Position numbers and translations under genes: made by a program. Below the pieces are notes generated by a model. The model was given only the letters and a program-made list of their open reading frames with translations, ran no database searches and was not told where the DNA came from. A DNA stretch of 64,000 bases, from contig NZ_CP028487.1 in NCBI RefSeq assembly GCF_003048255.1, positions 1,550,001 to 1,614,000 on the forward strand, written 5' to 3'. Positions within the stretch are counted from its first letter, which is position 1. Each line of letters starts with the position of its first letter. The DNA is from Yersinia massiliensis (GTDB lineage: Bacteria; Pseudomonadota; Gammaproteobacteria; Enterobacterales; Enterobacteriaceae). Shown in pieces: positions 25,557-45,366 of this stretch.

Positions 25557-25699
25557 ATCATACGTAAACCCATGTAAAGATTAGCGCTAAATACCGATTT
25601 TTACTCCCGTATTGAGGGTGTTTCTGTGTTAATCTAAAAGAGTCGGTGGGCTGTCAGTTGATAGCCTGTTTCATTATTTATATGCATAAGGTAACTACC

Positions 25700-26410: not shown

Positions 26411-26454
26411 CAAGGGTTGGCCAGTTGATGCTGGTGAAGTGAAGTTCTGATGAA

Positions 26455-26480
26455 GGGCACCTGCGGGTGCCCTTTTTGTT
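26455..26480 (+). terminator. Rho-independent terminator after ybhL
   Basis: GGGCACC-TGC-GGGTGCCC followed by TTTTTGTTTTT; strong stem and T tract 45 bases after the ybhL stop. Confidence 0.9.
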
Positions 26481-26565
26481 TTTGGTGTCAGGGAGCAATT
26501 AGCACGTAGATTGAGAACCCGTACCGGCATAGCTCAACCGGCACGGGGTAGAACTATCAGAGGAC

Positions 26566-28782
26566 TTACCAGGAATAGCTGACCGTTGCGGTGGCAACAC
26601 GGCCACTGCCATAGAAACAAGCGGCCATTTGTGCGCAACTGGCGACATACTCTTTATTGAAAACGTTGTTGACGTTGACTTGCAAACTGGTGCCTTTCAG
26701 AGAAGGTACTGCTTGCCCGAGTTCATAGCGCATCATCCAGTCATACAGGGTCACTGCCGGGACTTTAAAGCTGTTCTTCGCATCTCCCCAACTGGTGCCG
26801 ATATATCGCACGCCCATACCGGTGGATAAGCCCTCTACCACGCCTTTATCAAAGGTATACATTCCCCAGAGTGAAGCAGAATGGCTCGGTGTACGGGCTG
26901 GCATTTTATCCAATTCAGCCAGTGTTTTGGTCTCACGCACTTTCCCTTTGGTGTAGGTATAGGCGGCAATCAAGTTGATATTATCGTTAATCTCACTGTT
27001 TAACTGGGCTTCGATACCCTGAGATTGTACTTCGCCAATCGGGACGCTATAGGCTAGCGCCTGATCGTATTGGCTGATGTTTTTCTGGCGCAAATCATAC
27101 AGCGCGGTGGTCAGCATGGTGCTGCTACCCGGTGGCTGATATTTGATGCCAATTTCAACCTGACGTGCGGTCACTGGGTCCAATGCCCCCGTCCCTGGCG
27201 CGCCTTTGGCGGTGCTAGGTTCAAATGAAGTACTGTAACTGGCGTAAGGAGAAATACCCGAATCGAAGGCATACAGTACGCCAGCACGGCCAGTGAAAGC
27301 ATGGTCGTCTTGCTGATCATGAGTGGCGGTTTTGCGGTACTGGTTTTTTAGCTGTGACCAGTCATAGCGCCCAGACAGCAGGAAGTTCCACTTATCCAGC
27401 TCAATTTGATCTTGTAAATAAACCCCGACTTGATCGAGCTTGGTCAGATCGCTGCTATTGAGTGATAAATCACTGTCCTGAATATTCAGGCCATAACTCG
27501 GCGATACCCAATCCAGATTGTATTTTGTCTGTACCGTTCCCATAAAGAATTGGCTATCGATACGGGTGCGTTTGTAATCTAACCCCGTCAGCACGGTATG
27601 GTTAAGTTGGCCAGTCCAGAAATCCGCTTGCAACTGGTTATCAACTGCAAATTCACCGGTTGTCTGTCGCTCGATTTGCGGGCGACGGGTCATGGTGCGG
27701 TTATCGGCGAGCAAATTCATAAAGACCAGATATTTATAGTCTTGTTTGTTATAGCTGTAGCGTAGATTCTGACGGAATTTTAAGGTGTCATTGATGTAAT
27801 GCTCAAGCGAATAACCAACAGACGTTTGTTCGCGCTCAGACTGATCAAATGAGGGGTCACTGACATTAAAGTCATAGGGAATTTTGCCGTAGGCAGTGCC
27901 AAACACCGTACCCGTTGCGGGTAAGAAGTTACGCGAGCCGGCTTTTGGCTCTTTCTGATAGCTGGTCAGTAAAGTAAAGGTGGTGTCTTCGTTCGGGATA
28001 AAGGTTAACGCAGGCGCAATCGCAAAGCGTTCCTGCTTAAATGAATTAACCGCATCATCTTGAGTTCTGCCAATGCCATTCAGGCGATAAAGCACTTTGC
28101 CTTCATCATCCACTGCACCGCCAAAGTCGAAAGCGGCTTCTGCCAAGCTGTTATTACCTGCACCGACCTGAACTTTATGGATGCTTTCTGCGGTTGGGCG
28201 CTTGCTAACCATATTGATTAAGCCACCTGGGTTGACCTGACCGTACAGCACGGAGGCAGGGCCACGCACTACTTCAATCCGTTCCAGTAACCATGGATCA
28301 ATTTGACCACCACGACGTGCGCCACCCAATGAGTTATAGCTCAAACCATCAAGAAAACGCGGTGCGTAACCAAAACCACGAATGATCACTTCATCATTCA
28401 TATTAGAGCCGCCCCGATACTCCGGTACAACGCCTGCGGTGTAGCGCAGAGCTTGTGCGACAGAGGTTGCACCTTGGTCTTGTATTTGCTGAGCGGTAAT
28501 AACAGAAACTGATTGTGGTGTGCGGATTAGCGGGGTATCGGTCTTGGTGCCAGTGGAGCTATTTTTAGCAACGAAACCATCATCTTGTTGCCCGCTGCCG
28601 GTTTGGGCAACCACCACCAGCTTATCTTCTTTCGACGCAGTGGCTTCTTTAGCGGTGGTCGCAGCGGAAGCTTGAAGAGAAGGAATTAATATTAATGCTG
28701 AGGTAAATAATAAGGTCTTTGATTTGCAGCTTGCCCGAAATGGCAATTTTGTTGGTCTCTTCTTGCCAGAAGTTTCAAACAT
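26566..28782 (-). CDS. TonB-dependent siderophore receptor
   Basis: An outer-membrane ferric-siderophore channel of 738 residues. A long signal peptide ends near LQASA, a TonB-box-like stretch (DKLVVVAQTG) follows, then the plug (TPQSVSVITAQQIQDQG, GFGYAPRFLDGL, VRGPASVLYGQVNPGGLINMVSKRP) and a 22-strand barrel ending in YSW. The plug and C-terminal blocks (NVNNVFNKEYVASC, FYGSGRVATATVSYSW) are of the FhuA/FoxA/FcuA type (TIGR01783-like) and not the FepA type. Its position, divergent from fes across a Fur box, makes the locally made catecholate the likely ligand. A ferrichrome-type ligand remains possible. Confidence 0.88.
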   Translation of the reverse strand: MFETSGKKRPTKLPFRASCKSKTLLFTSALILIPSLQASAATTAKEATASKEDKLVVVAQTGSGQQDDGFVAKNSSTGTKTDTPLIRTPQSVSVITAQQIQDQGATSVAQALRYTAGVVPEYRGGSNMNDEVIIRGFGYAPRFLDGLSYNSLGGARRGGQIDPWLLERIEVVRGPASVLYGQVNPGGLINMVSKRPTAESIHKVQVGAGNNSLAEAAFDFGGAVDDEGKVLYRLNGIGRTQDDAVNSFKQERFAIAPALTFIPNEDTTFTLLTSYQKEPKAGSRNFLPATGTVFGTAYGKIPYDFNVSDPSFDQSEREQTSVGYSLEHYINDTLKFRQNLRYSYNKQDYKYLVFMNLLADNRTMTRRPQIERQTTGEFAVDNQLQADFWTGQLNHTVLTGLDYKRTRIDSQFFMGTVQTKYNLDWVSPSYGLNIQDSDLSLNSSDLTKLDQVGVYLQDQIELDKWNFLLSGRYDWSQLKNQYRKTATHDQQDDHAFTGRAGVLYAFDSGISPYASYSTSFEPSTAKGAPGTGALDPVTARQVEIGIKYQPPGSSTMLTTALYDLRQKNISQYDQALAYSVPIGEVQSQGIEAQLNSEINDNINLIAAYTYTKGKVRETKTLAELDKMPARTPSHSASLWGMYTFDKGVVEGLSTGMGVRYIGTSWGDAKNSFKVPAVTLYDWMMRYELGQAVPSLKGTSLQVNVNNVFNKEYVASCAQMAACFYGSGRVATATVSYSW

Positions 28783-29099
28783 GATTTATCCCTATCTAGA
28801 AACACAAAAATATACCCTCGGAAACTATTGGGTATAGGTCTGATTTAATGAGTTATATAAAAGATTTCTAGCCATTCAATCATTAGCCGCACCACACCGC
28901 GCCCATGCCAAATGCGACAAGAGAGTGACACCCCAGAAAGAATGCGCACTATGTTATTGCAAATAATAATTGTTCTCAATAGAATTCGTATTCTCATAAG
29001 AAACACGTATGTATTAGCTTTCTCTTTAGTCGTTACGGGACAGGTATTCGCGCGAATAGCCGCGAATAGACTTGGGCAGTAAAATTAAGAGGGTTGAGT
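28783..29099. other. Divergent promoter region of receptor gene and fes
   Basis: 317 bases without a gene between two divergent iron-uptake transcripts. It contains a Fur-box candidate at 28959-28977 and a further AT-rich palindromic stretch (AGAATTCGTATTCTCAT) immediately downstream, possibly a second overlapping Fur half site. Confidence 0.6.
28959..28977. promoter_or_regulatory. Fur box between receptor gene and fes
   Basis: GCAAATAATAATTGTTCTC matches 13 of 19 positions of the Fur consensus GATAATGATAATCATTATC. Iron repression of both divergent transcripts is inferred. Confidence 0.6.
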
Positions 29100-30428
29100 G
29101 TGGGCACGACAAATGAATATCCGGCGAGTCAGCATCTGCTAGCTGATCCTTTCGCCGGGAGTGACTCATGGTGGCAGCAGGTCGCGCAGTGGGGGACACC
29201 GCTGGTGGAACCTCTCGCGGCGGGCAATATAAAACTGACTTTCCTGTGGCGCGACCGGCAGGAAAAGGCGCACGACTCTGTTTACCGTCGAGTCTATATC
29301 GACGTCAATGGGCTGACAGATCACCACAGCCCGAATCCTGAAACTCTTCAGCGCTTGGGCCAAACAGATGTTTGGTATTGGCAGGCGGAAGTGGAATCTG
29401 ATTTCCGTGCCAGCTATTGCTTTATTCCGGCCACCGCAGCGCAATGCTTAAATTTGCCCGAAGGTAGCGCACCAGAGCGGCGTCAGGCGCAGCGCAATTG
29501 GTGGATATCAATGTTGGATCTGGCAGAAAACGATCCATTAAATCTCACTGCGGCTCATTGCAGTTATCGTGGCATGCCGCTTTCTGCGGTGCATCTCGCC
29601 GATGCTTTGCCGCAAACGGCCTGGCAACAGGTTGATACGGGCCAAACACTGCCTACCGACTCAAAACGGCTACAACGCATCACTTGGAACAGCCAGCGAT
29701 TAGGTAACAGCCGCAATGTGTGGATTTATCACACTGTGGGTGATGAAAGTCTTGGCAATGCCCGTTTTGATGCGGACGCGATAGCAGAAAGGCCGTTGGC
29801 TATTTTGCTCGATGGTCAGTATTGGGCGCAGGGGCAGACGGTATTTGGCGTGTTGGATAATGAAACGACCGCTGGCCGCTTACCCCCGAGTGTATATGTG
29901 TTGATCGATATTATTGATCAGCCCCATCGTTCGGAAGAATTGCCCTGCAATCAAGAATTTTGGCTCGCGCTGCAAACAGAATTACTGCCACAAGTTGCCT
30001 TGTTGCAACCCTTCACTGAAAAAGCCTCTCGCACCGTCGTTGCTGGGCAAAGCTATGGTGGTCTGGCTTCGCTATATGCCGGATTACATTGGCCTGCGCG
30101 TTTTGGCTGTGTATTAAGCCAATCCGGTTCTTTCTGGTGGCCAGACGTTGATAATTTCACCGCATTGTCGGCGGGGACGGCTGAACATCAGGGGTGGCTG
30201 ACAGAGCAGGTTTACCAAGGTCTGGGAGCGGGTCATCCATTGGCTATTTTTATGGAAGCCGGCCGCCGTGAAGATGTGATTTATCAAGTCAATGAAACCA
30301 TGAGTGACGCGCTGCGTCAGGCTGGGCATCGGTTGCACTATCGTATTTATTCCGGTGGTCACGATGCACTGTGTTGGCGTGGTGGATTGATTGATGGATT
30401 GCACTGTTTATTAGGTTCCACTCATTAA
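29100..30428 (+). CDS. fes: Catecholate siderophore esterase Fes
   Basis: A cytoplasmic alpha/beta hydrolase that cleaves the ester bonds of imported Fe-siderophore to release iron. About 442 residues (E. coli Fes is about 400). The N-terminal domain has RVYIDVNGLTDHH and GTDVW-like blocks; the catalytic domain has the nucleophile motif VAGQSYGGLASLYAGLHWP, VLSQSGSFWWP and the catalytic His in GGHDALCWRGGL. The start is GTG 29100, six bases after AAGAGGG; a TTG at 29094 is directly against that site and less likely. First gene of the fes-mbtH-NRPS transcript. An ester hydrolase fits a product built on a Ser-ester core. Confidence 0.93.
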   Translation: MGTTNEYPASQHLLADPFAGSDSWWQQVAQWGTPLVEPLAAGNIKLTFLWRDRQEKAHDSVYRRVYIDVNGLTDHHSPNPETLQRLGQTDVWYWQAEVESDFRASYCFIPATAAQCLNLPEGSAPERRQAQRNWWISMLDLAENDPLNLTAAHCSYRGMPLSAVHLADALPQTAWQQVDTGQTLPTDSKRLQRITWNSQRLGNSRNVWIYHTVGDESLGNARFDADAIAERPLAILLDGQYWAQGQTVFGVLDNETTAGRLPPSVYVLIDIIDQPHRSEELPCNQEFWLALQTELLPQVALLQPFTEKASRTVVAGQSYGGLASLYAGLHWPARFGCVLSQSGSFWWPDVDNFTALSAGTAEHQGWLTEQVYQGLGAGHPLAIFMEAGRREDVIYQVNETMSDALRQAGHRLHYRIYSGGHDALCWRGGLIDGLHCLLGSTH

Positions 30429-30447
30429 AAACAAGGACGTCATCGCC

Positions 30448-30678
30448 ATGAGCAATGAAACACAAGTTAACCCCTTCGATAACGAAGAATTACCCTTCTT
30501 AGTGCTGATCAACGCGCAGCAGCAATACAGTTTGTGGCCACAAATTACGGCGATCCCAGCCGGGTGGACGAGTGTCTATGGCCCGCAAAGCAGGGCGGAC
30601 TGTGTGAAATATCTTGAGGCCAATTGGACCGATATGCGTCCGGCCAGCTTGATTCGTGCAGAGGCTGCCCTGCGATAA
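30448..30678 (+). CDS. ybdZ: MbtH-like NRPS accessory protein
   Basis: 76 residues with the MbtH pattern: NPFDNEELPFLVLINAQQQYSLWP, PAGWTSVYGPQSR and an NWTDMRPASL end. These small proteins bind NRPS adenylation domains and stimulate amino acid activation. It sits between fes and the NRPS gene, as ybdZ does before entF in E. coli. Confidence 0.95.
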   Translation: MSNETQVNPFDNEELPFLVLINAQQQYSLWPQITAIPAGWTSVYGPQSRADCVKYLEANWTDMRPASLIRAEAALR

Positions 30679-30767
30679 CGCAGGTCATCGGTGAACGGAA
30701 TTATCGGAATATTGCGACCCTACCGGTTGCGATAAGTCGTTTGTTGCCCAAAAAAGGAATACCCATC

Positions 30768-33700
30768 GTGTCAGAGGATTCAACCCCCATTTTCGCAGAT
30801 GCCGCTATTGTCGAGTTGCCACTGGTTGCCGCGCAACCCGGTATTTGGTTTGCCGATCAGCTCAGCCAGCAAAAGACCTTGTATACCGTGGCTCATTACA
30901 TTGAACTGGCCGGTTCGTTGGACCGAATGTTATTTAGCCGCGCCGTCAGCCAAGGGTTGTCTGAGGCTGACACCCTGCATGCTCGCTTTTTCCACGGCGT
31001 TGATGGCCCGATGCAGCGTATTCCTCTCCAGTGTAAAGCAACTGACATCCCCAAGCTGGTTTGGCTCGATCTCAGTTCTCGTGCCGATGGTCGTCAGGCG
31101 GCACTGGCATTAATGCAAGATGATATTGATGCAGATTTACTGGCCGATGGCGACGAACCCCTTTATCGCCACTGGGTGATTCGTGTACCGGATGAACAAG
31201 GTAAACCGGTCTGGCTCTGGTATCAGCGTTATCATCATCTGGTAATCGATGGCTTTAGTTTCACCGCTATTACCCGCCGTATCGCTGATATATACACCGC
31301 TCTTCAGCAGGGTAAACCCATTGGCGAATCGCCCTTTACCCCTTTCAGTGATGTAGTCAGTGAATACTTAGCGTATGCCGGTTCTGAAACCGAGCAACGT
31401 GATAAGCAATTCTGGCTGCAACATACTGCGGATTTACCCGCCGCGATTTCTCTTTCAGCCATAAACTCGCCTATTCGGGCCGAACAAGCTGCGAGTCGCG
31501 TGTTGCGTCAGCGCATTGATATCGACTCAGCCTTGTTTAGCTGTTTGACACAACAGGGGGCAGAGCAACGTCTGACTGCCGCCGATATGGCGATGGCACT
31601 GCTGATGTCGTATTTTGCCCGAATGAGTGGTGAAAGGCGTCTATCGGTAGGATGTCCGTTTATGCGCCGCTTGGGATCGGCCGCTTTATCTGCCACTGGG
31701 CCGGTGGTGAATGTCCTCCCATTGCAGGTGAATTTACAACCTGAAATGAACCTGCTGGATGTTGCTCGGGCAGTGGCGAGCGAGTTGAAAAGGGTACGGA
31801 AATACCAGCGCTATGAAGCGGACCAATTACGGCGCGATCTGGGGATGGTCGGTTCCCAACGGTCACTTTATGGCCCCGTGCTGAATTTCAAACTGTTTGA
31901 TTTTGCGCTGAATCTAGGGGAAATCACGGGCATCACTCACACGCTCGCCTCTGGCCCCGTAGATGATTTAGAAATTGACCTCTATCTCGAAAGCGGCGAG
32001 CTAACGCTGGAAATCTTGGCGAATGCGGAGCGTTATGATCACGCCAACCTCCAGGCACACGGTGAGCGGATATCGTATTTGCTGCAACAACTGGCGACTC
32101 AGGCCACCATGCCGATTGGCAACCTCATACTGACCCCCACGCAAGAATTGCAATCCATTGATAGCTGGGCGAAAGGCCCACAATTCAGTCTGCCTGCCGG
32201 CATCGTTTCAGTACTGGATATTTTCCAGCAACAAGTCAGCGCGCAGCCGGATGCCATTGCGGTGAGATGTGGCGATCAAAGCCTGACTTATCATCAGCTT
32301 TCTGCCCGTGTCGCCCAATTGGGGCGTGCGTTAATTGCCCGAGGTATTGGGGCCGAAGATGTGATTGCGATTGGTCTTCCCCGAACGGTGGATTCGCTAG
32401 TGGCAATTTTGGGGGTGTTATCCAGTGGTGCTGCCTATATGCCGCTGGATCTCGATTATCCGATGGACCGATTAGCGCTCATGTGTGAAGACGCCACTCC
32501 GCGTATCCTGTTGGCCCACCAATCGACAGAAAGTGTGTTATCTCCGTTGAATGCGATGGGTGAGATGCCGATAGTCTGTCTGGATGACGTTCACTTCCAG
32601 CGTGAATGTGCGGCTTATGCTATCCAACCCATCAGCAATATTGAACGTCGGCAGCCAATGCACGGCGACCATTTGGCTTACATGATTTACACCTCCGGCT
32701 CGACTGGGCGGCCCAAAGGAGTCATGAGCACCCATGGCGGTTTAGTGAACTTGTTGGTGGCGCATCGTACCTATCTGTATGGTCCGGCGATGGCTGCCTT
32801 CAAGCAACAAAATACGCGTCGAATGCGTGCTGGACACACCGCGTCATTTTCCTTTGATTCCTCTTGGGAACCACTGTTTTGGATGATGATGGGCTGTGAG
32901 ATGGTGATTTTTGATGAAGAAATGCGCCGTGATGCTTATGCACTGGTGCAGTTGATGGATCAGGCCCCCATCGACACGATGGATATTACGCCGTCTTTCT
33001 TCACACAAATGATCGATAGCGGCTTATTGGAGCTTGGTCGCCATCGGCCTGCTTTCATTATGATTGGCGGCGAAGCGGCGACCCCGCGGTTATGGGATCT
33101 GTTAAAGCAGCATACTGAGCTCAATGTGGTTAACTTCTATGGTCCTTCGGAATACACCATTGATACCCTTGGCGCACATACCACTGTGTCGTTACAACCG
33201 GTGGTGGGCCGCCCGGTAGCTAACACCGAAGTTTATTTGTTGGATAGCCAACTGGCAAAAGTCCCAGTGGGCTCGGTCGGGGAGCTCTATATTGCTGGCC
33301 TAGGGCTGGCGCGTGGTTATCTGAATCGGCCTGATTTAACGGCAGCTCGTTTTGTCGCCAACCCATTCCGTTACGGCGAAGTGATGTACCGCAGTGGCGA
33401 TTTGATGCGCTGGACAGCACAGGGGCAGTTAGATTTTGTTGGCCGAATTGATCATCAGATAAAAGTGCGTGGTTTCCGCGTCGAACTGGGTGAAGTAGAA
33501 AATGCATTGGTGGCTTTACCCGAAGTCAGCAGTGCCGTGGTGATTGCACAAGCCATCGGCGCGACACACCGGCTGATTGGTTACTGCTCAGTGCCTGATG
33601 CACAACTGCGTGACAGCGAAGATCTCAATGCGCGATTAATGCGTCAACTGGCGGCCACTTTACCGGATTATATGGTGCCCGCGCTGCTGATGGTGCTGGA

Positions 33701-36700
33701 TGAAATGCCATTGACCGTGAATGGTAAAATTGATCGTCAGGCACTGCCCGCCCCACAACATCGGCAACAGTCATCCCGTCTTGAACAGTCAGCTTATCTT
33801 GAACAACTAACCCCGCAGGAAACGCTCCTGTGCACGAATATTGCCAGCTTGCTGCGTTTAGACTGCATCGGGGCAGAAGATGATTTCTTCCAACTGGGTG
33901 GCGACAGTATTTTAGCCATGGCTTTGGGGAGTGCTTTGCGCCGCGCGGGTTACCGCTTAACTCCGCGTGAAATTTTTGCTTTGCGTACGCCGGCTCGAAT
34001 GGCGCAAGCATTACAGCCATTGATTGAGAAGGGGACAGAGCCAGCGCTAGCGATGCCAACAGCCCATATTTTACCGGAAAAACTGTGGCAAGCCGCCAGT
34101 GAAAAATATGGCCCGATAGCCGATATTTTACCGGTTTTACCGCTGCAACAGGGGTTGCTATTCCATGCTCAATTAGGGCAAGAAGCCAACAATTACAATG
34201 CCATTAGCCGCTTTGATCTTCAGGGTGAGCTCGATATCGAACGCTTGCGCGATGCACTGGAAAGCCTGCTACAACGCTATCCGCAATTGGGCGCTATTTT
34301 TGACAGTGAGCTCCACCCTGAATCTTTGCAAATCCTGCCGCAGATTCATGGCAATGCCCGTCGCTGGCCTTGGAGACAGCATGATCTCAGTGCACTGACA
34401 CCGCATCAGCAAATGGCCGAAACCCAACGATTAGAGCGCGAAGGGCTGGCACGGGATCTGATGCGCGACACGGCGGGGACGCTGCAACCTTTGCTGGTGG
34501 CGACGTTGATCCGCTACAGCAGCGAGCGCCATTCCTTAGTAATCATTGCGCATCATTTGGTGGGTGATGGCTGGTCGTCGGCCATCTTGTTACATGACTT
34601 ACTGCACCTGTATGGCAATAGTGAAAAATCGGGGAATAGTGAAACATATGACAAGAGTGCAAAACTGCCGCCGCTGAGCGTGAGTTATGGCGACCTCATT
34701 CGCCGCATGACAGCGCGGGACTTACGGCAAGACCGCTCGGTTTGGCAGCAGGCGTTGCAGGGGGCGACGCCGACAATTTTGTACCCTGAATCCAATGCCG
34801 CCGGTCCAGTGTCCGAGTGGGTGATTGAGCTGGACAGCAAACTGGAAAGCGCATTGACCGCCTTGCAGCGGCGTGAAGGCATCACGCTGAATACCTTATT
34901 GCAAGGTGTTTGGGCGACATTATTGGGGGTACTCAGTGGCCGTGATGATGTGGTCTTCGGCTCGCCGGTTTCGGGTCGTTTTAGTGAAATAGAAGGCATC
35001 GAGCAGCATGTTGGCTTGTTCAGTAATACCCTCCCTGTGCGGGTAAAATTGCAACCTCAATTGCCACTGTTAACGCAACTGGCAGCCTTGCAGCAACAGC
35101 AAATCCAGTTATTGGAGCATGATGGCCTTGGCTTGGGCGAGATCCAACGTCTGGCCGGCGCGAACACCTTATTTGATACTTTATTGGTGGTCGAGAATTA
35201 TCCAGAAAACAACCAATTACATCAGCAATCTTTCAATGGTCTACGCTGTGATGCACTGAATAATCGCGGCTATACCCATTATCCACTGACGTTATTGGTG
35301 CTACCGGGTGAGAGGCTGCACCTGCAACTGGAATACCGTGATGCCGTCACCGATCCGCAACAAATAGCCCAGCGTTTGGTGATGTTGCTTGAGCACTTGG
35401 TTTGGCAGCCAGAGCTGCCTTTATCCGCACTGGATTTGCTGACCCATGGCGAAAAAGCTCTGATAGCGTCAGTCAATGACACCGCCATCGCCCTACCTAA
35501 ACTGACGCTATGTGACTTGATGAACCAGCAGGCACAATCCACCCCGCAAGCGGTCGCGTTACTGGATATCGATGAAACACTGACTTACCAGCAGGTAAAT
35601 CAACGGGTCAACGCACTGGCGGCTATTTTACGCCAACAAGGTGTGCAATCGGGGGATCGGGTCGCTGTGGCACTGCCACGTTCGGTCAATCTTAGTCTGG
35701 CTCTGATGGCTATTTTGGCGGCCGGTGCCGCTTATTTACCGTTGGATACCGGTTATCCTGCGGATCGTCTGGCTTATATGATAGGTGATGCCAAGCCACG
35801 GTTGATTATTACCGTCAGTTCATTGGCGGAACGTTTTATCGGTCAGGCACCCTTATTGCAGCTCGATCAGCAGGATTTGCTGGTGACAGCGACATTGCCT
35901 ACCGTCCTGATCACGGTGGAAAGTCCGGCTTATCTCATCTATACCTCAGGTTCCACTGGCCGACCTAAAGGGGTGGTGATCTCGCACGGTGCCATCGTTA
36001 ACCGCTTGTTGTGGATGCAAAATGAGTACCCATTGGGCGGTGATGATGTGGTATTACAAAAAACGCCGTGCAGTTTTGATGTTTCGGTGTGGGAGTTCTT
36101 CTGGCCGATGATCACCGGGGCTAGATTGGTCATGGCACCACCGGAGGCGCACCGTGATCCCGATGCATTACGCACCCTGATTGAAGATTATGGGGTGACC
36201 ACCGCCCACTTTGTCCCCTCCATGCTGGCGGCTTTTGTCAGTGCTATGGCAGCGCAAGATAAGCCCTGCCAGAGCTTGCGCCGAGTATTCTGTAGTGGTG
36301 AGGCATTGTCACGCGAGCTCTCGGTTCTCTATCAGGCGATTTTTTCTGCGCCATTACATAACTTATATGGCCCGACTGAGGCGGCGGTTGATGTGACTTA
36401 TCAGCCAGCCTATGGCGATGCGCTGGCGCAGGTGGCGGGCAACAGTGTGCCCATTGGTAAGCCGGTCTGGAATACTCAACTGCGAATTCTCGACAGTATG
36501 CTGCGCCAAGTCCCCGTTGGCGTGGCAGGCGATCTGTATCTGTGTGGCGTGCAATTGGCGCAAGGCTACTATGATCGTCCAGATCTCACGGCCAGCCGCT
36601 TTGTCGCTGATCCTTACGATCATGGCCAGCGAATGTATCTCACTGGCGATATTGCTCGCTGGCTGCCGGACGGTGCCGTCGAGTATCTGGGGCGCAGCGA

Positions 36701-38036
36701 TTTTCAATTAAAGATCCGTGGACAGCGTATTGAATTGGGCGAGATAGAGTCTGCTTTGCTGGCGCTACCTCAAGTCCAGCAAGCCGTTGTTCATGCTCGC
36801 ACCTTGGTCGGTGTCGAGGGAGCTTTGGCCGGTGCCGATAGCCGTCAATTAGTGGGCTATATCGTGCCGACTAACGGGGCTGAAAATACCGACATGGAAC
36901 TCTTGCGCCAACAGCTCAGTGAACAGTTGCCCGCGCATATGGTGCCGGCAGTTATCGTCAGTCTGAAAGCATTTCCGCTTAGCGCCAATGGCAAACTGGA
37001 TCGCAAAGCGTTACCCGCTCCCGTTAATCAAGCAGGTCATGGTGGACGTGCGCCACACGCCGGTCTGGAAAGTGTGATCGCGGGGTTATTTGCCAACTTG
37101 CTGGGGGTTGAGTCGGTCAATGCTGATGATGATTTCTTTGCGTTAGGGGGGCACTCTTTGCTGGCGATGAGACTGGCGGCTGATTTACGTCGCGAGTTGC
37201 AGCAACCGGTCGCGGTTGGGCAAGTGATGGTGGCCTCAACAGTAGCAACGTTGGCGGCAGCATTGAGCCAGCCATCATCAGAAATGTCAGCCGGAAAAGC
37301 GGGCTTCAGTGAAGTATTGCCGTTGCGAAGCGGCCACGGTCATCCGCTATTTTGTCTCCATCCGGCCTCGGGTTTTGCTTGGCAATTCAGCCTATTACCT
37401 CGTTATTTGCCGGGCAACTGGCCAGTGTTAGGGATCCAATCACCTCGCCCTGATGGGGCAATCGCCACCTGTCAGGATATGGATAGCCTCTGTGATCATC
37501 ATCTGGCAACGTTACGTCAGGTCCAACCACAGGGGCCATATCATCTGATGGGCTATTCACTGGGCGGCACCGTGGCGCAGGCCATGGCGGTAAAATTGCG
37601 GGCACAGGGTGAGGAAGTCGCTTTCTTAGGGTTGTTGGATACCTATCCACCGGAAACTCAGGATTGGAATGCACCGATTGAGGCTGAAGCACTCGAAGAA
37701 GTCGAACGTGAGCGGGCATTATTTATGGCTGCGGCAGGTGACGAGCAAGAAGAGAAACGCGAGATGTTTGCGCAAATTCAAGCAAACTACGACGATGCGG
37801 TTGGTTTGCTGTCAGGGGCGAAAACGCCGGTTTATGAGGGTGAAACCACGTTGTTTGTTGCCACTCAGACCTTGCCTGACGGTGAATCGCCAGAGGAAAT
37901 TTGGCGACCTTATGCGAAACAATTGCAAACTTACAGTTTGGATTGTTCCCATATCACGATGATGTCACCGGAGACATTAAAAGTGTTGGGGCCGATTTTG
38001 CAACGCGTGTTTAAGGGGATTCGATCGTTATCCTAG
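30768..38036 (+). CDS. Dimodular siderophore NRPS, EntF-like (C-A-T-C-A-T-TE)
   Basis: 2422 residues from a GTG at 30768 (AAAAAGGA upstream; N-terminus aligns with EntF PLVAAQPGIWFA), almost twice E. coli EntF (1293). Domain order: C1 (HHLVIDG near 156), A1 (YTSGSTGRPKG near 640, YGPSEYTID near 790), T1 (LGGDSILAM near 1045), C2 (HHLVGDG near 1262), A2 (near 1724; YGPTEAAVD near 1866), T2 (LGGHSLLAM near 2126), TE (GYSLGG near 2262). The A2 specificity residues read DVWHFSLVD, the Ser code of EntF. The A1 code reads about D-S-W-D-M-G-F-I-D, with Asp at the 278 and 331 positions, suggesting Lys, Arg or Orn. There is no epimerisation domain. Product inferred: a (DHB-cationic residue-Ser)3 triscatechol. 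Confidence 0.95.
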   Translation: MSEDSTPIFADAAIVELPLVAAQPGIWFADQLSQQKTLYTVAHYIELAGSLDRMLFSRAVSQGLSEADTLHARFFHGVDGPMQRIPLQCKATDIPKLVWLDLSSRADGRQAALALMQDDIDADLLADGDEPLYRHWVIRVPDEQGKPVWLWYQRYHHLVIDGFSFTAITRRIADIYTALQQGKPIGESPFTPFSDVVSEYLAYAGSETEQRDKQFWLQHTADLPAAISLSAINSPIRAEQAASRVLRQRIDIDSALFSCLTQQGAEQRLTAADMAMALLMSYFARMSGERRLSVGCPFMRRLGSAALSATGPVVNVLPLQVNLQPEMNLLDVARAVASELKRVRKYQRYEADQLRRDLGMVGSQRSLYGPVLNFKLFDFALNLGEITGITHTLASGPVDDLEIDLYLESGELTLEILANAERYDHANLQAHGERISYLLQQLATQATMPIGNLILTPTQELQSIDSWAKGPQFSLPAGIVSVLDIFQQQVSAQPDAIAVRCGDQSLTYHQLSARVAQLGRALIARGIGAEDVIAIGLPRTVDSLVAILGVLSSGAAYMPLDLDYPMDRLALMCEDATPRILLAHQSTESVLSPLNAMGEMPIVCLDDVHFQRECAAYAIQPISNIERRQPMHGDHLAYMIYTSGSTGRPKGVMSTHGGLVNLLVAHRTYLYGPAMAAFKQQNTRRMRAGHTASFSFDSSWEPLFWMMMGCEMVIFDEEMRRDAYALVQLMDQAPIDTMDITPSFFTQMIDSGLLELGRHRPAFIMIGGEAATPRLWDLLKQHTELNVVNFYGPSEYTIDTLGAHTTVSLQPVVGRPVANTEVYLLDSQLAKVPVGSVGELYIAGLGLARGYLNRPDLTAARFVANPFRYGEVMYRSGDLMRWTAQGQLDFVGRIDHQIKVRGFRVELGEVENALVALPEVSSAVVIAQAIGATHRLIGYCSVPDAQLRDSEDLNARLMRQLAATLPDYMVPALLMVLDEMPLTVNGKIDRQALPAPQHRQQSSRLEQSAYLEQLTPQETLLCTNIASLLRLDCIGAEDDFFQLGGDSILAMALGSALRRAGYRLTPREIFALRTPARMAQALQPLIEKGTEPALAMPTAHILPEKLWQAASEKYGPIADILPVLPLQQGLLFHAQLGQEANNYNAISRFDLQGELDIERLRDALESLLQRYPQLGAIFDSELHPESLQILPQIHGNARRWPWRQHDLSALTPHQQMAETQRLEREGLARDLMRDTAGTLQPLLVATLIRYSSERHSLVIIAHHLVGDGWSSAILLHDLLHLYGNSEKSGNSETYDKSAKLPPLSVSYGDLIRRMTARDLRQDRSVWQQALQGATPTILYPESNAAGPVSEWVIELDSKLESALTALQRREGITLNTLLQGVWATLLGVLSGRDDVVFGSPVSGRFSEIEGIEQHVGLFSNTLPVRVKLQPQLPLLTQLAALQQQQIQLLEHDGLGLGEIQRLAGANTLFDTLLVVENYPENNQLHQQSFNGLRCDALNNRGYTHYPLTLLVLPGERLHLQLEYRDAVTDPQQIAQRLVMLLEHLVWQPELPLSALDLLTHGEKALIASVNDTAIALPKLTLCDLMNQQAQSTPQAVALLDIDETLTYQQVNQRVNALAAILRQQGVQSGDRVAVALPRSVNLSLALMAILAAGAAYLPLDTGYPADRLAYMIGDAKPRLIITVSSLAERFIGQAPLLQLDQQDLLVTATLPTVLITVESPAYLIYTSGSTGRPKGVVISHGAIVNRLLWMQNEYPLGGDDVVLQKTPCSFDVSVWEFFWPMITGARLVMAPPEAHRDPDALRTLIEDYGVTTAHFVPSMLAAFVSAMAAQDKPCQSLRRVFCSGEALSRELSVLYQAIFSAPLHNLYGPTEAAVDVTYQPAYGDALAQVAGNSVPIGKPVWNTQLRILDSMLRQVPVGVAGDLYLCGVQLAQGYYDRPDLTASRFVADPYDHGQRMYLTGDIARWLPDGAVEYLGRSDFQLKIRGQRIELGEIESALLALPQVQQAVVHARTLVGVEGALAGADSRQLVGYIVPTNGAENTDMELLRQQLSEQLPAHMVPAVIVSLKAFPLSANGKLDRKALPAPVNQAGHGGRAPHAGLESVIAGLFANLLGVESVNADDDFFALGGHSLLAMRLAADLRRELQQPVAVGQVMVASTVATLAAALSQPSSEMSAGKAGFSEVLPLRSGHGHPLFCLHPASGFAWQFSLLPRYLPGNWPVLGIQSPRPDGAIATCQDMDSLCDHHLATLRQVQPQGPYHLMGYSLGGTVAQAMAVKLRAQGEEVAFLGLLDTYPPETQDWNAPIEAEALEEVERERALFMAAAGDEQEEKREMFAQIQANYDDAVGLLSGAKTPVYEGETTLFVATQTLPDGESPEEIWRPYAKQLQTYSLDCSHITMMSPETLKVLGPILQRVFKGIRSLS

Positions 38037-38186
38037 TAGTGGCAAGCGGTTGATGGTTGATGTTGGCTAGGTGAGGCGTAAAGACCTATCAGCCGAACGG
38101 TTCACTGAGCCAACGTTCAACCGAATCTATCGACTCTCTTAAGGCATGGCGGGTCATGGTGGCCCACATTAACGGATTAAATAAAC

Positions 38187-39455
38187 ATGGCAAAATCGCC
38201 TATTCTTCTAGATTTCAGCTTGTTAAAGAATAACGCCAACTTTCGCGCAGTATTTTTTGCTCGCCTGATTTCGATATTAGGGCTGGGAATGCTCACAGTC
38301 GCGGTACCGGTACAGATTCAACAGATGACGGGATCAACCTTACAAGTCGGATTGGCCGTCACCTTGGATGGGGCAGGGATGTTTATCGGCCTGCTACTGG
38401 GGGGCGTACTGGCAGACAGATTTGATCGGCGCACACTGATCTTATTTGCGCGTTTTACCTGTGGCTTAGGCTTTATTGGCTTAAGTTTCAATGCATTCTC
38501 CGCGACACCTTCCTTATGGGTACTGTATGTCTTAGCCGCGTGGGATGGGTTCTTCGGGGCGCTGGGGATGACAGCATTGATGGCGGCAACACCGTCATTG
38601 GTTGGGCGGGAGAATTTGGCTGCTGCTGGTGGCTTAAGCATGCTTACTGTCCGTTTTGGCTCGGTCATCTCTCCGGCGATCGGGGGCTTAGTCATAGTGT
38701 ACGGCGGGTTAGGTTGGAACTACGGCATTGCTGCGGTGGGCACCATGCTCACCTTATTACCGCTGTTGCGTCTGCCAGCCATGAAACCGGCGATAAGCCA
38801 ACATGAGCACCCGCTACGGGCGCTTGCCACTGGGATTTCATTCGTCTTTAGCCACAAAATTGTGGGGGCGGTGGTGTTGCTGGGGACGTTGGTCAGCATG
38901 ATTGGCGCCATTCGTATTTTGTTTCCGGCGTTGGCGGAAAATACTTATCATGTCGGCGCCTCGCAGATTGGTTTGATGTATTCAATCGTGCCGCTGGGGG
39001 CGACCATCGGGGCGTTTACCAGTGGATGGGTCAGTCAGGTAAGGCGGCCTGGCGTGGTGCTGATGTACAGCTCGATTGCCGCTTTTTTAGCCATCGGGAC
39101 ACTCGGCTTAACCCATAATGTCTATTTGGCCCTACCGGGCTTGTTGATGTACGGCTATCTGGGGTCGATTAGCGGCTTGCTGCAATATACATTGGTACAA
39201 ACTCATACACCGGATGCGTTATTGGGGCGGGTAAACAGTCTGTGGAATGTCCAGTTTGTCGCGGGTGAATCATTCGGGGCATTGGGGCTAGGGGTATTAG
39301 CAAAAGTGATGGCGCCGGCACTCAGCGCCCTGACATTTGGCGTGGCAGCCGCAGCACTGGGGAGCCTCATTGCGCTCTGTGGTGGGACACTGCGTGAGGC
39401 CACCATGGCGGGCGACCAGCGTGGTTCAGAAGAGGATGAGGCCGTCGTTGAGTAA
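38187..39455 (+). CDS. entS: EntS-like MFS siderophore exporter
   Basis: 422 residues (E. coli EntS 416) with about 12 membrane helices. The N-terminus (LLDFSLLKNNANFRAVFFARLISILGLGML) and the loop-2 motif GGVLADRFDRRTLILFAR are characteristic of EntS. In E. coli this protein exports enterobactin to the periplasm. It lies 150 bases after the NRPS gene on the same strand. The ribosome site is weak. Confidence 0.92.
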   Translation: MAKSPILLDFSLLKNNANFRAVFFARLISILGLGMLTVAVPVQIQQMTGSTLQVGLAVTLDGAGMFIGLLLGGVLADRFDRRTLILFARFTCGLGFIGLSFNAFSATPSLWVLYVLAAWDGFFGALGMTALMAATPSLVGRENLAAAGGLSMLTVRFGSVISPAIGGLVIVYGGLGWNYGIAAVGTMLTLLPLLRLPAMKPAISQHEHPLRALATGISFVFSHKIVGAVVLLGTLVSMIGAIRILFPALAENTYHVGASQIGLMYSIVPLGATIGAFTSGWVSQVRRPGVVLMYSSIAAFLAIGTLGLTHNVYLALPGLLMYGYLGSISGLLQYTLVQTHTPDALLGRVNSLWNVQFVAGESFGALGLGVLAKVMAPALSALTFGVAAAALGSLIALCGGTLREATMAGDQRGSEEDEAVVE

Positions 39456-39495
39456 TTTGATGGCTTGCTTGCCAGATGCCGGTTAAGGCTGTGAA

Positions 39496-39534
39496 GATCA
39501 ACTGGGTTGTGACACTTTATCAACCCAATTGATC
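39496..39534. terminator. Inverted repeat between convergent entS and fepB
   Basis: GATCAACTGGGTTG and CAACCCAATTGATC pair over 14 bases with one mismatch around an 11-base loop. It lies between two convergent stops; no T tract is obvious. Confidence 0.55.
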
Positions 39535-39569
39535 ACTCAGCCGAATATCCACCAAAACAACATTCGCCG

Positions 39570-40604
39570 CTAAGGCTTTGCCTTAAACATGCCCTCAATT
39601 CGGGTGAGCAAATTACTCGCACTGTAATAATCCAACCGAAAGGTATCGTACCCTGCGGCATAAACTCGATTGTGTTCAATCGCCGGAATATGGGCTAAAA
39701 ATTGATTACTTTTCAATGCATCAATCGCCGGTTGGTCACCGGAAAAGAGCAAAATAGTCTCGCCATTCAAGCCTTCGGCTAACTTCTCCCCACCCAGTTG
39801 GATGATATCTTTACGATTCCCCATACTGGTGTTGCCCTTCACTGAATTCGGGATCTCTGCCAGCGTAAAGCCCAGCTCCTGCAATAATTTCCCCTGCGCT
39901 GAATTCTCTGTCCATAAGTTCGCGGTGCTACTGGCTGCCTGATAGACGAATGCCGAAATGGGTTGCGGCGGTAAAGTAATATTCTGTCTTACCTCATTGA
40001 GCCGATTGGAAAATTCATCAATCACCCGTTTAGCGTCGCTTTCGTGTCCTGTCGCTTGCCCTAATACAAGGGCTAATTCTTGCCAGCTCTTATCATCGTA
40101 ATTAATCACTAGCGTTGGGGCGATGGCTGACAATTGCTCATATAACTTCAGCGCTGAATCACCGCCCGTGGCAGCAATGATAATTAAATCTGGACTCATG
40201 CCCGCAACGGCTTCGGCGTTGGGCTCGGTCTGGTACATCGGCATTAATTTTCGCGATTGCGCAACATCTGACCATTGTGTAAAGAATCCTTGATGATCAG
40301 CCACTGTCGTATCGGGTACGGTCACGCCTGTGGCGATCACCGGTGCATTGATCGCCAGCAAGGTGCCGGTCATGGTGATACTGGTAGAGACAATCCGTGT
40401 TGGCTGTTGTGTCAGTGTGACTGAGCCTTTAGCGGTTTCTACTGTACGCGACCATGTAGTTGGGCTTTCACTGGCTGCTGGAGGGGTAGACTTACCTGTT
40501 GTTTCTTCGGCAGGTTTGCAGCCTGATAAGCACAAAACAAGGCCCAAAATACCCAAGCCAGTTAAGAGTGAACACCCTGTTTTATGCTGATGACCAAGGG
40601 ACAT
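39570..40604 (-). CDS. fepB: FepB-like siderophore-binding protein, predicted lipoprotein
   Basis: 344 residues of the class III periplasmic binding protein family (BtuF/FhuD/FepB fold): TRIVSTSITMTGTLLAI, SPDLIIIAATGGDSALKLYEQLSAIAPTLVINYD, QLGFTLAEIPNSV and the C-terminal YSASNLLTRIEGMF. The N-terminus ends in a lipobox (LCLSGC, Cys29), so it should be a lipid-anchored protein, unlike soluble FepB of E. coli. It is divergent from entC over a strong Fur box, as fepB is in E. coli. No matching permease or ATPase genes are in the window. Confidence 0.88.
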   Translation of the reverse strand: MSLGHQHKTGCSLLTGLGILGLVLCLSGCKPAEETTGKSTPPAASESPTTWSRTVETAKGSVTLTQQPTRIVSTSITMTGTLLAINAPVIATGVTVPDTTVADHQGFFTQWSDVAQSRKLMPMYQTEPNAEAVAGMSPDLIIIAATGGDSALKLYEQLSAIAPTLVINYDDKSWQELALVLGQATGHESDAKRVIDEFSNRLNEVRQNITLPPQPISAFVYQAASSTANLWTENSAQGKLLQELGFTLAEIPNSVKGNTSMGNRKDIIQLGGEKLAEGLNGETILLFSGDQPAIDALKSNQFLAHIPAIEHNRVYAAGYDTFRLDYYSASNLLTRIEGMFKAKP

Positions 40605-40687
40605 AACGACGTTTTCTCTTCTTGTGAGTAGGCGCTAAGTTAGCGGGTTTATATTAGCAATGGTTAATAATAATATTTTTACATTTA

Positions 40688-40716
40688 TTGACAATGCGAA
40701 TACTTAGTCGTAATTT
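40688..40716 (+). promoter_or_regulatory. Sigma-70 promoter candidate for entCEBA
   Basis: TTGACA at 40688-40693 and TAATTT at 40711-40716 with 17-base spacing, just upstream of the Fur boxes and about 70-100 bases before the entC start. Confidence 0.5.
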
Positions 40717-40729
40717 ACCATGCATTAAA

Positions 40730-40754
40730 GGAAATGATAGTCATTATTATTATC
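40730..40754. promoter_or_regulatory. Overlapping Fur boxes between fepB and entC
   Basis: GGAAATGATAGTCATTATT (40730-40748) and, shifted by six bases, GATAGTCATTATTATTATC (40736-40754) each match 15 of 19 positions of the Fur consensus. Overlapping 19-mers offset by six bases are typical of strong Fur operators. They lie in the divergent promoter region, so both fepB and entCEBA should be iron-repressed. Confidence 0.85.
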
Positions 40755-40784
40755 ATTAGTATTTACATCGCAATGGAGGTCTTT

Positions 40785-41999
40785 GTGCGATACAGCAACT
40801 CTGACGAACATGGTAGCTCTGAAGAAATGCCCGTTAATTCGCCGTTTTCAACCATACCCTCAACTTTCTTATTCACCTCAGGACACCAGAGTATTAAAAC
40901 TCGCGGTATCTTCGAGCGAATAAACCAAGCCGCGCAAAGTCGTATTGGAAGCAATGATTCACTGCAAAATGCGATAAAACGGGCTTTCCAACGTGCTCAT
41001 AAAGCGGGTAAACAGCAGCCTATCGTGGTTGGCGCAATTCCGTTTGATGCGAGTCAAGCATCCTGCTTATTTGTGCCGGAGCAATATCAGGTTTGTGACC
41101 GACAAACGTTGGTCAATGCAGCAAAAATAGCAAATCGTAGTCCGGTCAGCGCTGGGTGCGTGCGTAGTCTGCCAGATGAAAACCAATTCAAACAATGCGT
41201 GACTGAAGCCATTTCTGCCTGTCAACGCGGAACCATTCATAAAGTTGTTCTGTCCCGTATTTTAGAAATTGAAACTGATACCCCAGTTGATAGTGACCAA
41301 GTCATGAATCATTTGCTGGTCCAAAACAGTCATGCCCATCACTTTAGGGTGCCTTTGTCCGATGGGGGAGTCCTACTCGGTGCTAGCCCTGAATTATTGG
41401 TGCGTAAGCATTTATCTCAGGTTTATACCAACCCATTGGCAGGGTCGGCAAAACGGCAGACGAATCAGCAGGACGATCTGGACATCAGCCAAGCACTGCT
41501 GAATTCAGAAAAAGATCAATATGAGCACCGCTTGGTTATTGATGAAATTCGCCGTTTGCTGACACCCCATTGCCGCAGCCTGAATATCCCCTCCCAACCT
41601 TCGCTGATTAGCACGGCGGCTTTATGGCACTTATCTTCTGCCATCAGTGGTGAACTGGAAGACCCGGCGATGTCGGTGCTGGAACTGGCTAACTTATTGC
41701 ATCCGACACCGGCTTTGTGTGGCTTACCAACAGCAAAAGCTCGGCAATTGATTAACCACTTGGAGCCCTTTGATCGTGGCTTATTCAGTGGCATTGTCGG
41801 CTGGTGTGATGAGCAGGGTAATGGTGAATGGGCGGTCATTATCCGCTGCGCCACCTTGCATCCCACTCAAGTGCGATTATTTGCCGGTGCAGGCATTGTT
41901 GCCGCCTCACAACCAGCATTGGAATGGTTAGAAACCGAAGCCAAATTGGGCACCATGCTCAATGCGCTGGCAATTACCCCTTCAGGAGAGCAGCCATGA
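40785..41999 (+). CDS. entC: Isochorismate synthase EntC
   Basis: Converts chorismate to isochorismate for DHB synthesis. The GTG at 40785 has GGAGGT just upstream and gives 404 residues (E. coli 391); ATG 40773 overlaps that ribosome site, and the longer frame from 40734 starts inside the Fur box. Motifs [65 protein letters not shown] and [16 protein letters not shown] are those of the isochorismate synthase family. Its stop overlaps the entE start (ATGA). Confidence 0.95.
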
Positions 42000-43642
42000 G
42001 CATCGAGTTCACTCGCTGGCCAGAGGAATTTGCACGTCGCTACCGCGAAAAAGGCTATTGGACCGATCAGCCGATGACAGAGATGTTATCTCGTCAGTGC
42101 CAGATTCGGCCCGAAGCCACAGCCATCATTTGTGGTGAGCGTCATATTAGCTATCTTCAGTTTGAGCAGGCCGCGCAACGACTCGCCATTTACCTGACTC
42201 AGCAGGGCTTGGGTTGCGGTGATACGGCATTGGTCCAACTCCCTAATTGCGCCGAATTCTATCTCGTCTATTTCGCGCTATTAAAAATCGGCGTAGCACC
42301 CGTTAATGCATTATTCAGCCATAATCGGCTGGAATTAAATGCCTATATTGAACAGATTCAACCACGTTTACTGATCGCCCACGCCGATCACAACCTGTTT
42401 GCTGATGGCCATTATTGCGCCCAATTGCAGCAAAAAGCGCCAATGTTGGACGTGGTGCTGGTGGCGGGAGAGACAGATTATGCGCCATTGTTGGAAGCGG
42501 TGCTCTATGGGACAGAGTTGGCGGGTGAGCTAGGCAATCAAGCCGTAGAATTTCATCCCTCAGCCGCCGACGAAGTCGCCTTTTTCCAACTGTCAGGTGG
42601 CAGCACCGGTATGCCAAAACTGATCCCCCGTACCCACAATGACTATTACTACAGTGTGCGTGCCAGTGCGGAAATCTGTCAGCTTGATGAACACACTCGC
42701 TACTTATGCGCCTTACCCGCGGCTCATAATTACCCGCTAAGTTCACCGGGGGCATTAGGCGTCTTTTACGCTGGCGGCTGCGTCGTGCTCGCGCCCGATC
42801 CCAGTGCCATGAGCTGTTTCCCACTCATTAAGCGCCATCAGATCACATTGACTTCCTTAGTTCCTCCCGCCGTAGCCCTATGGTTACAAGCCGCGGAGCA
42901 TTTTGCTGATGACCTGACCAGTTTGCAGGTATTACAAGTCGGTGGCGCGAAACTCAGTGAATCTCTGGCGCGACGTATACCGCAGGTATTGGGCTGTCAA
43001 TTGCAGCAGGTATTGGGTATGGCGGAAGGACTGGTGAATTACACCCGCTTTGATGACAGTGACCACTTGGTGTTTACCACTCAAGGGCGACCCATCAGCG
43101 AAGACGATGAAATCAAGCTGGTTGATAGTGAAGGGGTTCCCGTCGCGCAGGGGGAAGTTGGTGCGTTGGTGACCCGTGGCCCTTATACCTTCCGCGGCTA
43201 TTACCGCAGCCCGACGCATAATGCCAATACCTTTGATCATGAAGGTTTTTACCATTCCGGTGATTTGGTCCAGATGACCGAAGAGGGTTATTTACGCGTC
43301 GTTGGGCGGGAAAAAGATCAGATTAATCGTGGCGGGGAAAAGATCGCCGCAGAAGAGATTGAAAACCTGCTGGTGGCTCATGACAACATTATTCATGCGG
43401 CGTTGGTTTCAATGCCCGACGAGATGATGGGGGAGAAAAGCTGCGCCTTTATTGTGAGCAATGACGCCAGTTTGCGGCCAGTCACTTTACGTAAATATCT
43501 GCGTGAGCAAGGGGTGGCTGACTTCAAATTACCCGATCGTTTTGAAATGGTGACCCATTTACCGGTTACGCCAGTCGGCAAAATAGATAAAAAGCGGTTA
43601 CGTCAGGATATACAAGACCGCCTCAGTACGCTTAGCAAATAA
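41996..43642 (+). CDS. entE: 2,3-dihydroxybenzoate-AMP ligase EntE
   Basis: Activates DHB with ATP and loads it on the EntB carrier domain. The ATG at 41996 gives 548 residues (E. coli 536) and overlaps the entC stop; a longer frame inside entC (from 41828) is not coding. [25 protein letters not shown] is the AMP-binding P-loop region, followed by [25 protein letters not shown] and the catalytic Lys region TPVGKIDKK. The Asn and Ser residues that recognise the DHB hydroxyls appear conserved by eye. Confidence 0.96.
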
Positions 43643-43652
43643 GGATTTTATC

Positions 43653-44555
43653 ATGGCTATCCCTGTTCTTTCTGCTTACGACCTGCCCAAACCTGGGCAA
43701 TTTCCAGCAAATAAAGTGAATTGGCAGTTTAACCCAGCGCGTGCGGTGTTGCTGATCCATGATATGCAGGATTATTTCGTCAGTTTTTATGGTGAAGATA
43801 ACCCCTTGATACAGCAGGTTATCGCCAATATCGCCGCCCTACGACATTACTGCAAACAGCAGGGCGTACCGGTTATCTACACCGCCCAACCTAATCATCA
43901 AAGTGCAGAAGATAGAGCACTGCTTAATGATATGTGGGGCGCAGGTTTAAATAATCATCCAGCCAAACAGCGGGTGGTATCAGAACTGACACCGGATGCG
44001 GAAGATGAAGTCTTGGTCAAATGGCGATACAGCGCATTTTACCGTTCGCCTTTACGCCAAATCATGACGGATAAGGGCCGCGATCAATTGGTTATCTGCG
44101 GTATTTATGGGCACATCGGGTGTTTGACCACCGCAACAGATGCTTTTATGCAAGACATTCAGCCATTTATGGTTGCTGATGCTATTGCCGATTTCTCGTT
44201 GGATGAGCATTTGATGGCACTTAAGTATGTGGCAACCCGAAGTGGACGCGTCATTTTTACCGAGGAAATGGTGGTGAACGGAAGTGCCGCAAATTTCAGC
44301 AAAGATGAGCTTAAACAGCAATTATTGACACTGGTTGATGAAAGTGCCGAAGATTTCGATGAGAACGAAAATCTGATCAATTATGGCCTGAGCTCGGTGC
44401 ATATCATGACACTGGCAACCCAGTGGCGTCAGCAAGGCATTGAGCTGAACTTTGTCGATTTAGCGAAGAATCCCAGCCTCAATAATTGGTGGAAGCTGTT
44501 GGAGCAACAGCTCGCCAATCAGACCGACAATTCGGCTTTGGCAGGAGCAGAATAA
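43653..44555 (+). CDS. entB: Isochorismatase / aryl carrier protein EntB
   Basis: Two functions in one chain of 300 residues (E. coli 285). The N-terminal isochorismatase has the catalytic Asp in LLIHDMQDYFVSFYG, Lys in VLVKWRYSAFYRS and IGCLTTATDAFM. The C-terminal aryl carrier domain has the phosphopantetheine Ser in INYGLSSVHIM. The residue before that Ser is Ser, where E. coli EntB has Asp (GLDS), an uncommon form of the carrier motif. It ends in NPSLNNWWKLL as in EntB. A stretch of about ten extra residues lies near the domain linker and C-terminus. Confidence 0.96.
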   Translation: MAIPVLSAYDLPKPGQFPANKVNWQFNPARAVLLIHDMQDYFVSFYGEDNPLIQQVIANIAALRHYCKQQGVPVIYTAQPNHQSAEDRALLNDMWGAGLNNHPAKQRVVSELTPDAEDEVLVKWRYSAFYRSPLRQIMTDKGRDQLVICGIYGHIGCLTTATDAFMQDIQPFMVADAIADFSLDEHLMALKYVATRSGRVIFTEEMVVNGSAANFSKDELKQQLLTLVDESAEDFDENENLINYGLSSVHIMTLATQWRQQGIELNFVDLAKNPSLNNWWKLLEQQLANQTDNSALAGAE

Positions 44556-45334: not shown

Positions 45335-45366
45335 TGCCGTATTGCCCGCCTGAATATGGTTTCCGC

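Follow-up and report, generated by a model that had tools for sequence, protein, structure and literature searches.

A probable frederiksenibactin-type synthetase and its split siderophore locus in Yersinia massiliensis

The window (a stretch of 64,000 nucleotides from Yersinia massiliensis, contig NZ_CP028487.1, positions 1,550,001 to 1,614,000) carries a dimodular NRPS gene that is very probably a FreF-type (frederiksenibactin) synthetase with the product (DHB-L-Lys-L-Ser)n. As an enzyme it is an ordinary member of the FreF kind, with nothing new in its mechanism, and the modestly interesting part is the locus around it, which is split and appears to have been regained. FreF of Yersinia frederiksenii ATCC 33641 selects Lys and Ser, lacks an epimerization (E) domain and is accompanied by DHB genes, and similar clusters are described for several Yersinia (PMC8480324).

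The NRPS open frame runs from 30624 to 38036 on the forward strand. It is listed with a TTG start at 30624 (2470 aa), and the GTG at 30768 is the likelier start (2422 aa), being also the start of the database protein P0002 (Yersinia massiliensis), which shows 98.4% identity with the window NRPS over its full length. Pfam finds two Condensation, two AMP-binding and two PP-binding domains and one Thioesterase, and with our own models for the C, A and E domains the window protein reads C-A-T-C-A-T and P0120 and P0073 read C-A-T-E-C-A-T. No E domain was found in the window NRPS by Pfam or by our E model; because P0120 and P0073 are among the 16 longer relatives from which that model was built, only its E-less result counts as independent. 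The features of the gene are as follows:

30768..38036, forward strand: dimodular NRPS C-A-T-C-A-T-TE, FreF-type (Pfam and own domain models)
30816..32129, forward strand: C1, starter-type condensation domain, DHB its putative donor (limits from own model; groups with EntF C domains)
32205..33767, forward strand, limits approximate: A1, predicted L-Lys, pocket D S (S W) E / D / M / G / F / I / D / K (alignment and tree)
33810..34022, forward strand, limits approximate: T1, carrier Ser1047 (GGDSI) (Pfam)
34119..35465, forward strand: C2, groups with DCL-type condensation domains, without a preceding E domain (Pfam, own models, trees)
35526..37022, forward strand, limits approximate: A2, L-Ser, code DVWHFSLVDK (Pfam and alignment)
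37074..37265, forward strand: T2, carrier Ser2130 (GGHSL) (Pfam)
37344..37979, forward strand: TE, EntF-type thioesterase (Pfam and alignment)

The domain order, the absence of an E domain and the EntF-type Ser code in A2 (DVWHFSLVDK in the alignment) thus agree with the original prediction. In the thioesterase, S2264, D2291 and H2395, which we take to be the catalytic triad, are invariant among nine aligned sequences. A condensation-family search of the whole genome found only the two C domains of the window, and the genome holds a 250-aa phosphopantetheinyl transferase frame besides one of AcpS size.

The genes of the locus follow the order TonB receptor, fes, mbtH, NRPS, entS, fepB, entC, entE, entB, entA, so that the DHB pathway genes entCEBA stand beside the NRPS, as for FreF:

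26566..28782, reverse strand: TonB-dependent receptor, FhuA/FoxA-like (Pfam Plug and barrel; best NCBIfam model FhuA, 662.8 bits, below its cut-off of 803)
29094..30428, forward strand: fes, enterochelin-type esterase (NF007758, 566.7 bits, cut-off 222)
30448..30678, forward strand: mbtH-like protein (PF03621, 81.6 bits)
38187..39455, forward strand: entS exporter (NF007792, 596.4 bits, cut-off 324)
39570..40604, reverse strand: fepB periplasmic binding protein (NF008200, 470.4 bits, cut-off 205)
40734..41999, forward strand: entC isochorismate synthase (PF00425; TIGR00543, 313.6 bits, cut-off 224.75)
41999..43642, forward strand: entE DHB-AMP ligase (NF008192, 924.7 bits, cut-off 783; frame open from 41828, match from residue 58)
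43653..44555, forward strand: entB isochorismatase with aryl carrier domain (PF00857 and PF00550)
44486..45334, forward strand: entA dehydrogenase (NF006074, 412.4 bits, cut-off 312; match from residue 27)

The receptor is 73% identical to that of the Y. ruckeri locus. Against the EntC equivalog model entC reaches 398.2 bits, under the cut-off of 624, and entB has no match over the cut-off of the EntB equivalog model. Module 2, the thioesterase and most neighbouring genes are of the ent type, as they would be if the synthetase made enterobactin, and the window shares with EntF a Ser-selecting C-A-T-TE module, an MbtH protein and the gene neighbourhood. However, EntF is a single module without a spacer amino acid and has a C domain that falls with C1 rather than C2, whereas the window protein has an additional C-A-T module with an acidic pocket and scores 1982.2 bits with the EntF model, below the cut-off of 2400. 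We rejected an EntF identity for this two-module protein, and the chance that enterobactin is the product is negligible.

The substrate of A1 is best called L-Lys, as in the frederiksenibactin synthetase. Its pocket positions, named via alignment with A2, are D697, S698, (S699 W700) E701, D739, M765, G767, F790, I798, D799 and K987 (P0001 numbering), with D739 and D799 as the Asp residues foreseen at positions 278 and 331. The one-residue shortening reported near position 238 is also present, as a gap before W700; because this gap is common to all 38 validly read A1 rows other than L011 in a 47-row alignment, it is a family trait and no anomaly of the window. The remaining nine rows comprise L011, which aligns without the gap but has an A1 of another kind, and eight that are not valid A1 reads. 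In a 46-row A1 alignment (21 of 121 proteins, 14 of 79 loci and 11 genus loci, with L021 and L062 dropped as single-module frames), 16 rows share the pocket residues of the window, itself counted in, 17 differ by a single F to Y change at position 322, and 13 show larger differences, two of these (L007 and L093) coming from one Y. ruckeri genome. The 322-Tyr rows are from Dickeya, Brenneria, Xenorhabdus, Prodigiosinella, Serratia ficaria, two Yersinia genomes and others, and the E-bearing Dickeya-type synthetases fall among them, the source name of P0120 beginning 'Chrysobactin sy'. These Dickeya-type rows, the counterparts of CbsF (chrysobactin and cyclic trichrysobactin), show 58-59% overall identity to the window protein; unlike the latter, CbsF has an E domain after T1 (D-Lys), and a cyclic trimer is known for it (PMC8480324). 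A full-length orthologue of the NRPS occurs in 12 of 25 Yersinia genomes, with the window form of the pocket in nine, the Tyr form in two (G009 and G016) and the Y. ruckeri form in one (G021, whose coordinates are those of L007, Y. ruckeri ATCC 29473). The likeness to FreF rests on nine close Yersinia orthologues with one common pocket.

If A1 activated L-Arg, the product would be a ruckerbactin-like (DHB-Arg-Ser)n. Ruckerbactin contains L-Arg, and the Y. ruckeri synthetase shares the domain order and gene set of the window and likewise has Asp at positions 278 and 331 of A1. Identity between the two proteins is 73-84% in module 2 and the thioesterase but 50% in both A1 and C1, and among 12 tabulated pocket-region positions six agree and six differ (236, 237/8, 240, 299, 322, 330). 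In the A1 tree the window falls inside the Lys-type clade and Y. ruckeri outside it (support 99/99), in a tree with long branches, that of the Y. ruckeri A1 among them; all trees in this analysis are midpoint-rooted. We therefore rejected a ruckeri-type A1 and consider activation of Arg highly unlikely; Lys is preferred because the pocket fits the Lys-type family and not Y. ruckeri. An A1 for L-Orn would make the synthetase turnerbactin-like. TnbF of Teredinibacter turnerae shares the E-less domain order, with a DCL-like C2 acting on an L donor, a Ser module 2, a cationic residue and a linear trimer as product, but its A1 has an Orn code; in the published code, DSDDGGLVDK, positions 299, 322 and 330 are G, L and V, against M, F and I in the window, and the specificity prediction for that domain was reported as inconclusive (PMC3795760). 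An Orn-type A1 was thus rejected, and the probability left to it is very small. There is good support for the expected (DHB-cationic amino acid-Ser)n synthetase similar to that of frederiksenibactin; of the two architectures named with it, frederiksenibactin (L-Lys) and ruckerbactin (L-Arg), the Lys type is preferred.

The condensation domains raise a question of configuration. C1 groups with EntF-type starter domains (support 100/100, 72-row tree), and C2 stands among DCL domains, with those of E-bearing relatives and of further synthetases that lack an E domain. In the 72-row tree, which holds 14 randomly drawn LCL rows and omits DCL rows from nine sources that are near-duplicates, a branch with 100/99 support has on the side of C2 all 12 DCL rows, all dimodular C2 domains and two of the 14 LCL rows. 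In a 94-row tree with 50 LCL rows drawn at random, the clade of C2 (99/96) takes in 17 of the 23 DCL rows but none of the LCL rows, the other six DCL rows standing elsewhere beside six LCL rows. The picture is clear yet imperfect, because the LCL and DCL labels were assigned by domain order only. Such a grouping would suit a residue that ends up D or mixed, should a DCL-like C2 epimerize its donor or prefer D. However, the window protein has no E domain; the synthetases of frederiksenibactin (PMC8480324) and turnerbactin (PMC3795760) are equally E-less, and Marfey analysis gave an L residue for the former and L-Orn for the latter. TnbF moreover combines this L product with a C2 placed among DCL domains, for which its authors suggest loss of an E domain (PMC3795760). 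The mismatch between an E-less synthetase and a DCL-like C2 is already in print and is not new, C2 type alone is an unsafe guide to L or D, and a D or mixed residue is most improbable. The argument from the missing E domain to an L residue agrees with both precedents, although C2 itself groups with D-donor domains.

Starting from the domain order, the A-domain codes and the gene content of the locus, and drawing on relatives and known families for Lys, its L configuration, linear release and transport, we propose a pathway in which EntCBA would make DHB and EntE would load it onto the carrier domain of EntB. A1 would activate L-Lys, which C1 would couple with DHB on T1; A2 would activate L-Ser, to which C2 would attach DHB-L-Lys on T2. 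The thioesterase would gather three units as seryl esters and then release them. The secreted (DHB-L-Lys-L-Ser)n is expected to be mostly a linear trimer, a lactone being possible, with EntS as its presumed exporter, and iron would return through the FhuA-like receptor, FepB, Fes and a FepDGC encoded elsewhere in the chromosome. The unit type of the predicted (DHB-cationic amino acid-Ser)3 trilactone stands, but the trilactone goes beyond the data, because frederiksenibactin, built of catechol-lysine-serine units, was detected solely as the linear trimer, with no cyclic form in the part of the report consulted (PMC8480324).

The locus forms a compact block, and its uptake genes are divided between two places:

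26411..45366, strand not assigned: inserted fre block, between the ybhL-type and ybhR-type genes
25646-26410: Bax1-I family gene (ybhL), left flank of the block
45367-46473: ABC-2 permease gene (ybhR), right flank of the block
G000:C1:644867-649896 (L150:4808-9896): half-locus with fes2, fepC, fepG and putative fepD

We take the flanking genes to be ybhL and ybhR by E. coli gene order. They are at most 1.5 kb apart in 22 of 25 Yersinia genomes and have the block between them in two, the window genome (G000) and G014 (G022 was not resolved). There is no transposase gene at the block edges, because only 155 and 32 bases separate the block genes from their neighbours. Compared with the FreF locus, that of the window lies between ybhL and ybhR and is without fepDGC. 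In six other Yersinia loci (G003, G006, G009, G010, G016, G021) the NRPS and entS are separated by an ABC trio that is absent from those of the window and G014; it was typed in G006, where two permeases exceed the FepD- and FepG-type model cut-offs and the ATPase, in an over-long frame, is best matched by FepC below the cut-off. In the window genome the trio lies at about C1:646937-649790, 0.93 Mb from the block, with FepG 88% and FepC 79% identical to their G006 counterparts and an adjacent second permease that we assign as FepD from its position and family. A second fes (fes2, C1:644867-646156), 72% identical to the window fes, is next to it; the fes2-fepC gap, compared with the window genes at E 0.1, gave nothing except 13 residues of fes. 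Comparison of the leading residues by eye finds the surroundings of this half-locus similar to those of the complete fre locus in G003, and its downstream side similar also to that in G006 and G010.

To place the two copies of fes, we compared gene trees. A fes match is found in 23 of 25 Yersinia genomes, and two copies in G000 and G014 only. In the Fes tree the fes2 pair of these genomes groups with G015, G005 and G002 (100/99), which have no full-length synthetase orthologue, and in the uvrB DNA tree G000 and G014 join the same three genomes (100/99); the window Fes is placed with G003, G010, G024 and G020 at weak support (80-85). Therefore fes2-fepCGD seems to have been inherited vertically, and the window block to have been regained, horizontally so far as these limited data go. 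We consider it fairly likely that the Y. massiliensis lineage regained a ~19-kb frederiksenibactin locus between ybhL and ybhR by horizontal transfer after its native locus had shrunk to fes-fepCGD. The block has a Fes, a receptor and a FepB of its own but lacks FepDGC, and iron uptake would therefore depend on two half-loci that differ in ancestry and lie 0.93 Mb from each other; their two Fes proteins may have divided the work. Against a horizontal regain count the use of a single housekeeping gene (uvrB), the weak support at the window-Fes nodes, the lack of a synthetase in G024 and G020, and the failure to find a donor, the window NRPS being 84-86% identical to those of seven other Yersinia; an old duplication with many losses could also have led to this distribution.

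A1 also appears to have a history of its own in Y. ruckeri. G009 (L092) and Y. ruckeri (L007/L093) share 73-86% identity in C1, C2, A2, T2 and TE, 65% in T1 and 51-57% in A1; the identity falls at residues about 420-440 and recovers near 1040, and it dips again in the linker between T1 and C2. The module-2 tree unites the two (100/100) and the A1 tree separates them. This looks like an exchange of the whole A1 between sister lineages whose pockets are now of the Lys type in G009 and of the ruckeri type in Y. ruckeri. Among the best 120 matches listed in a protein search for the donor, no A1 besides that of Y. ruckeri exceeded 46% identity, the window A1 being nearer at 50%; a second protein search listed no protein named vanchrobactin synthetase. 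Ruckerbactin is described as enterobactin-like, with a receptor resembling the Dickeya ferrichrysobactin receptor (PMC6770984). The window appears to extend a characterized siderophore to another Yersinia lineage, and Yersinia may offer a small natural series in which one scaffold carries a Lys-type or a ruckeri-type A1 through whole-domain exchange and the locus is lost and regained, which would bear on the co-evolution of siderophore identity and uptake.

Three further observations concern these loci. A Fur-box-like site matching at 16 of 19 positions (40736-40754) lies at the listed entC start (ATG 40734), whose real start may be downstream; sites with at least 13 matches number six in 20 kb, within the range given by ten mono-nucleotide shuffles (0 to 6), and we treat the site as only a lead. 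In five Yersinia loci (G021, G010, G003, G009, G016) entA is followed by a gene for a stand-alone adenylation domain of 502-519 aa, absent from the loci of the window, G014 and G006; Pfam found no carrier domain in the L119 and L113 proteins. The genes are:

L113:11261-12787, stand-alone adenylation gene
L119:11000-12505, stand-alone adenylation gene
L117:2287-3804, stand-alone adenylation gene
L114:6574-8130, stand-alone adenylation gene
L123:5587-7143, stand-alone adenylation gene

Finally, in G003 entS and fepB are separated by a block of large frames of up to 1560 aa (L116:6273-15738), which none of the other examined loci showed.
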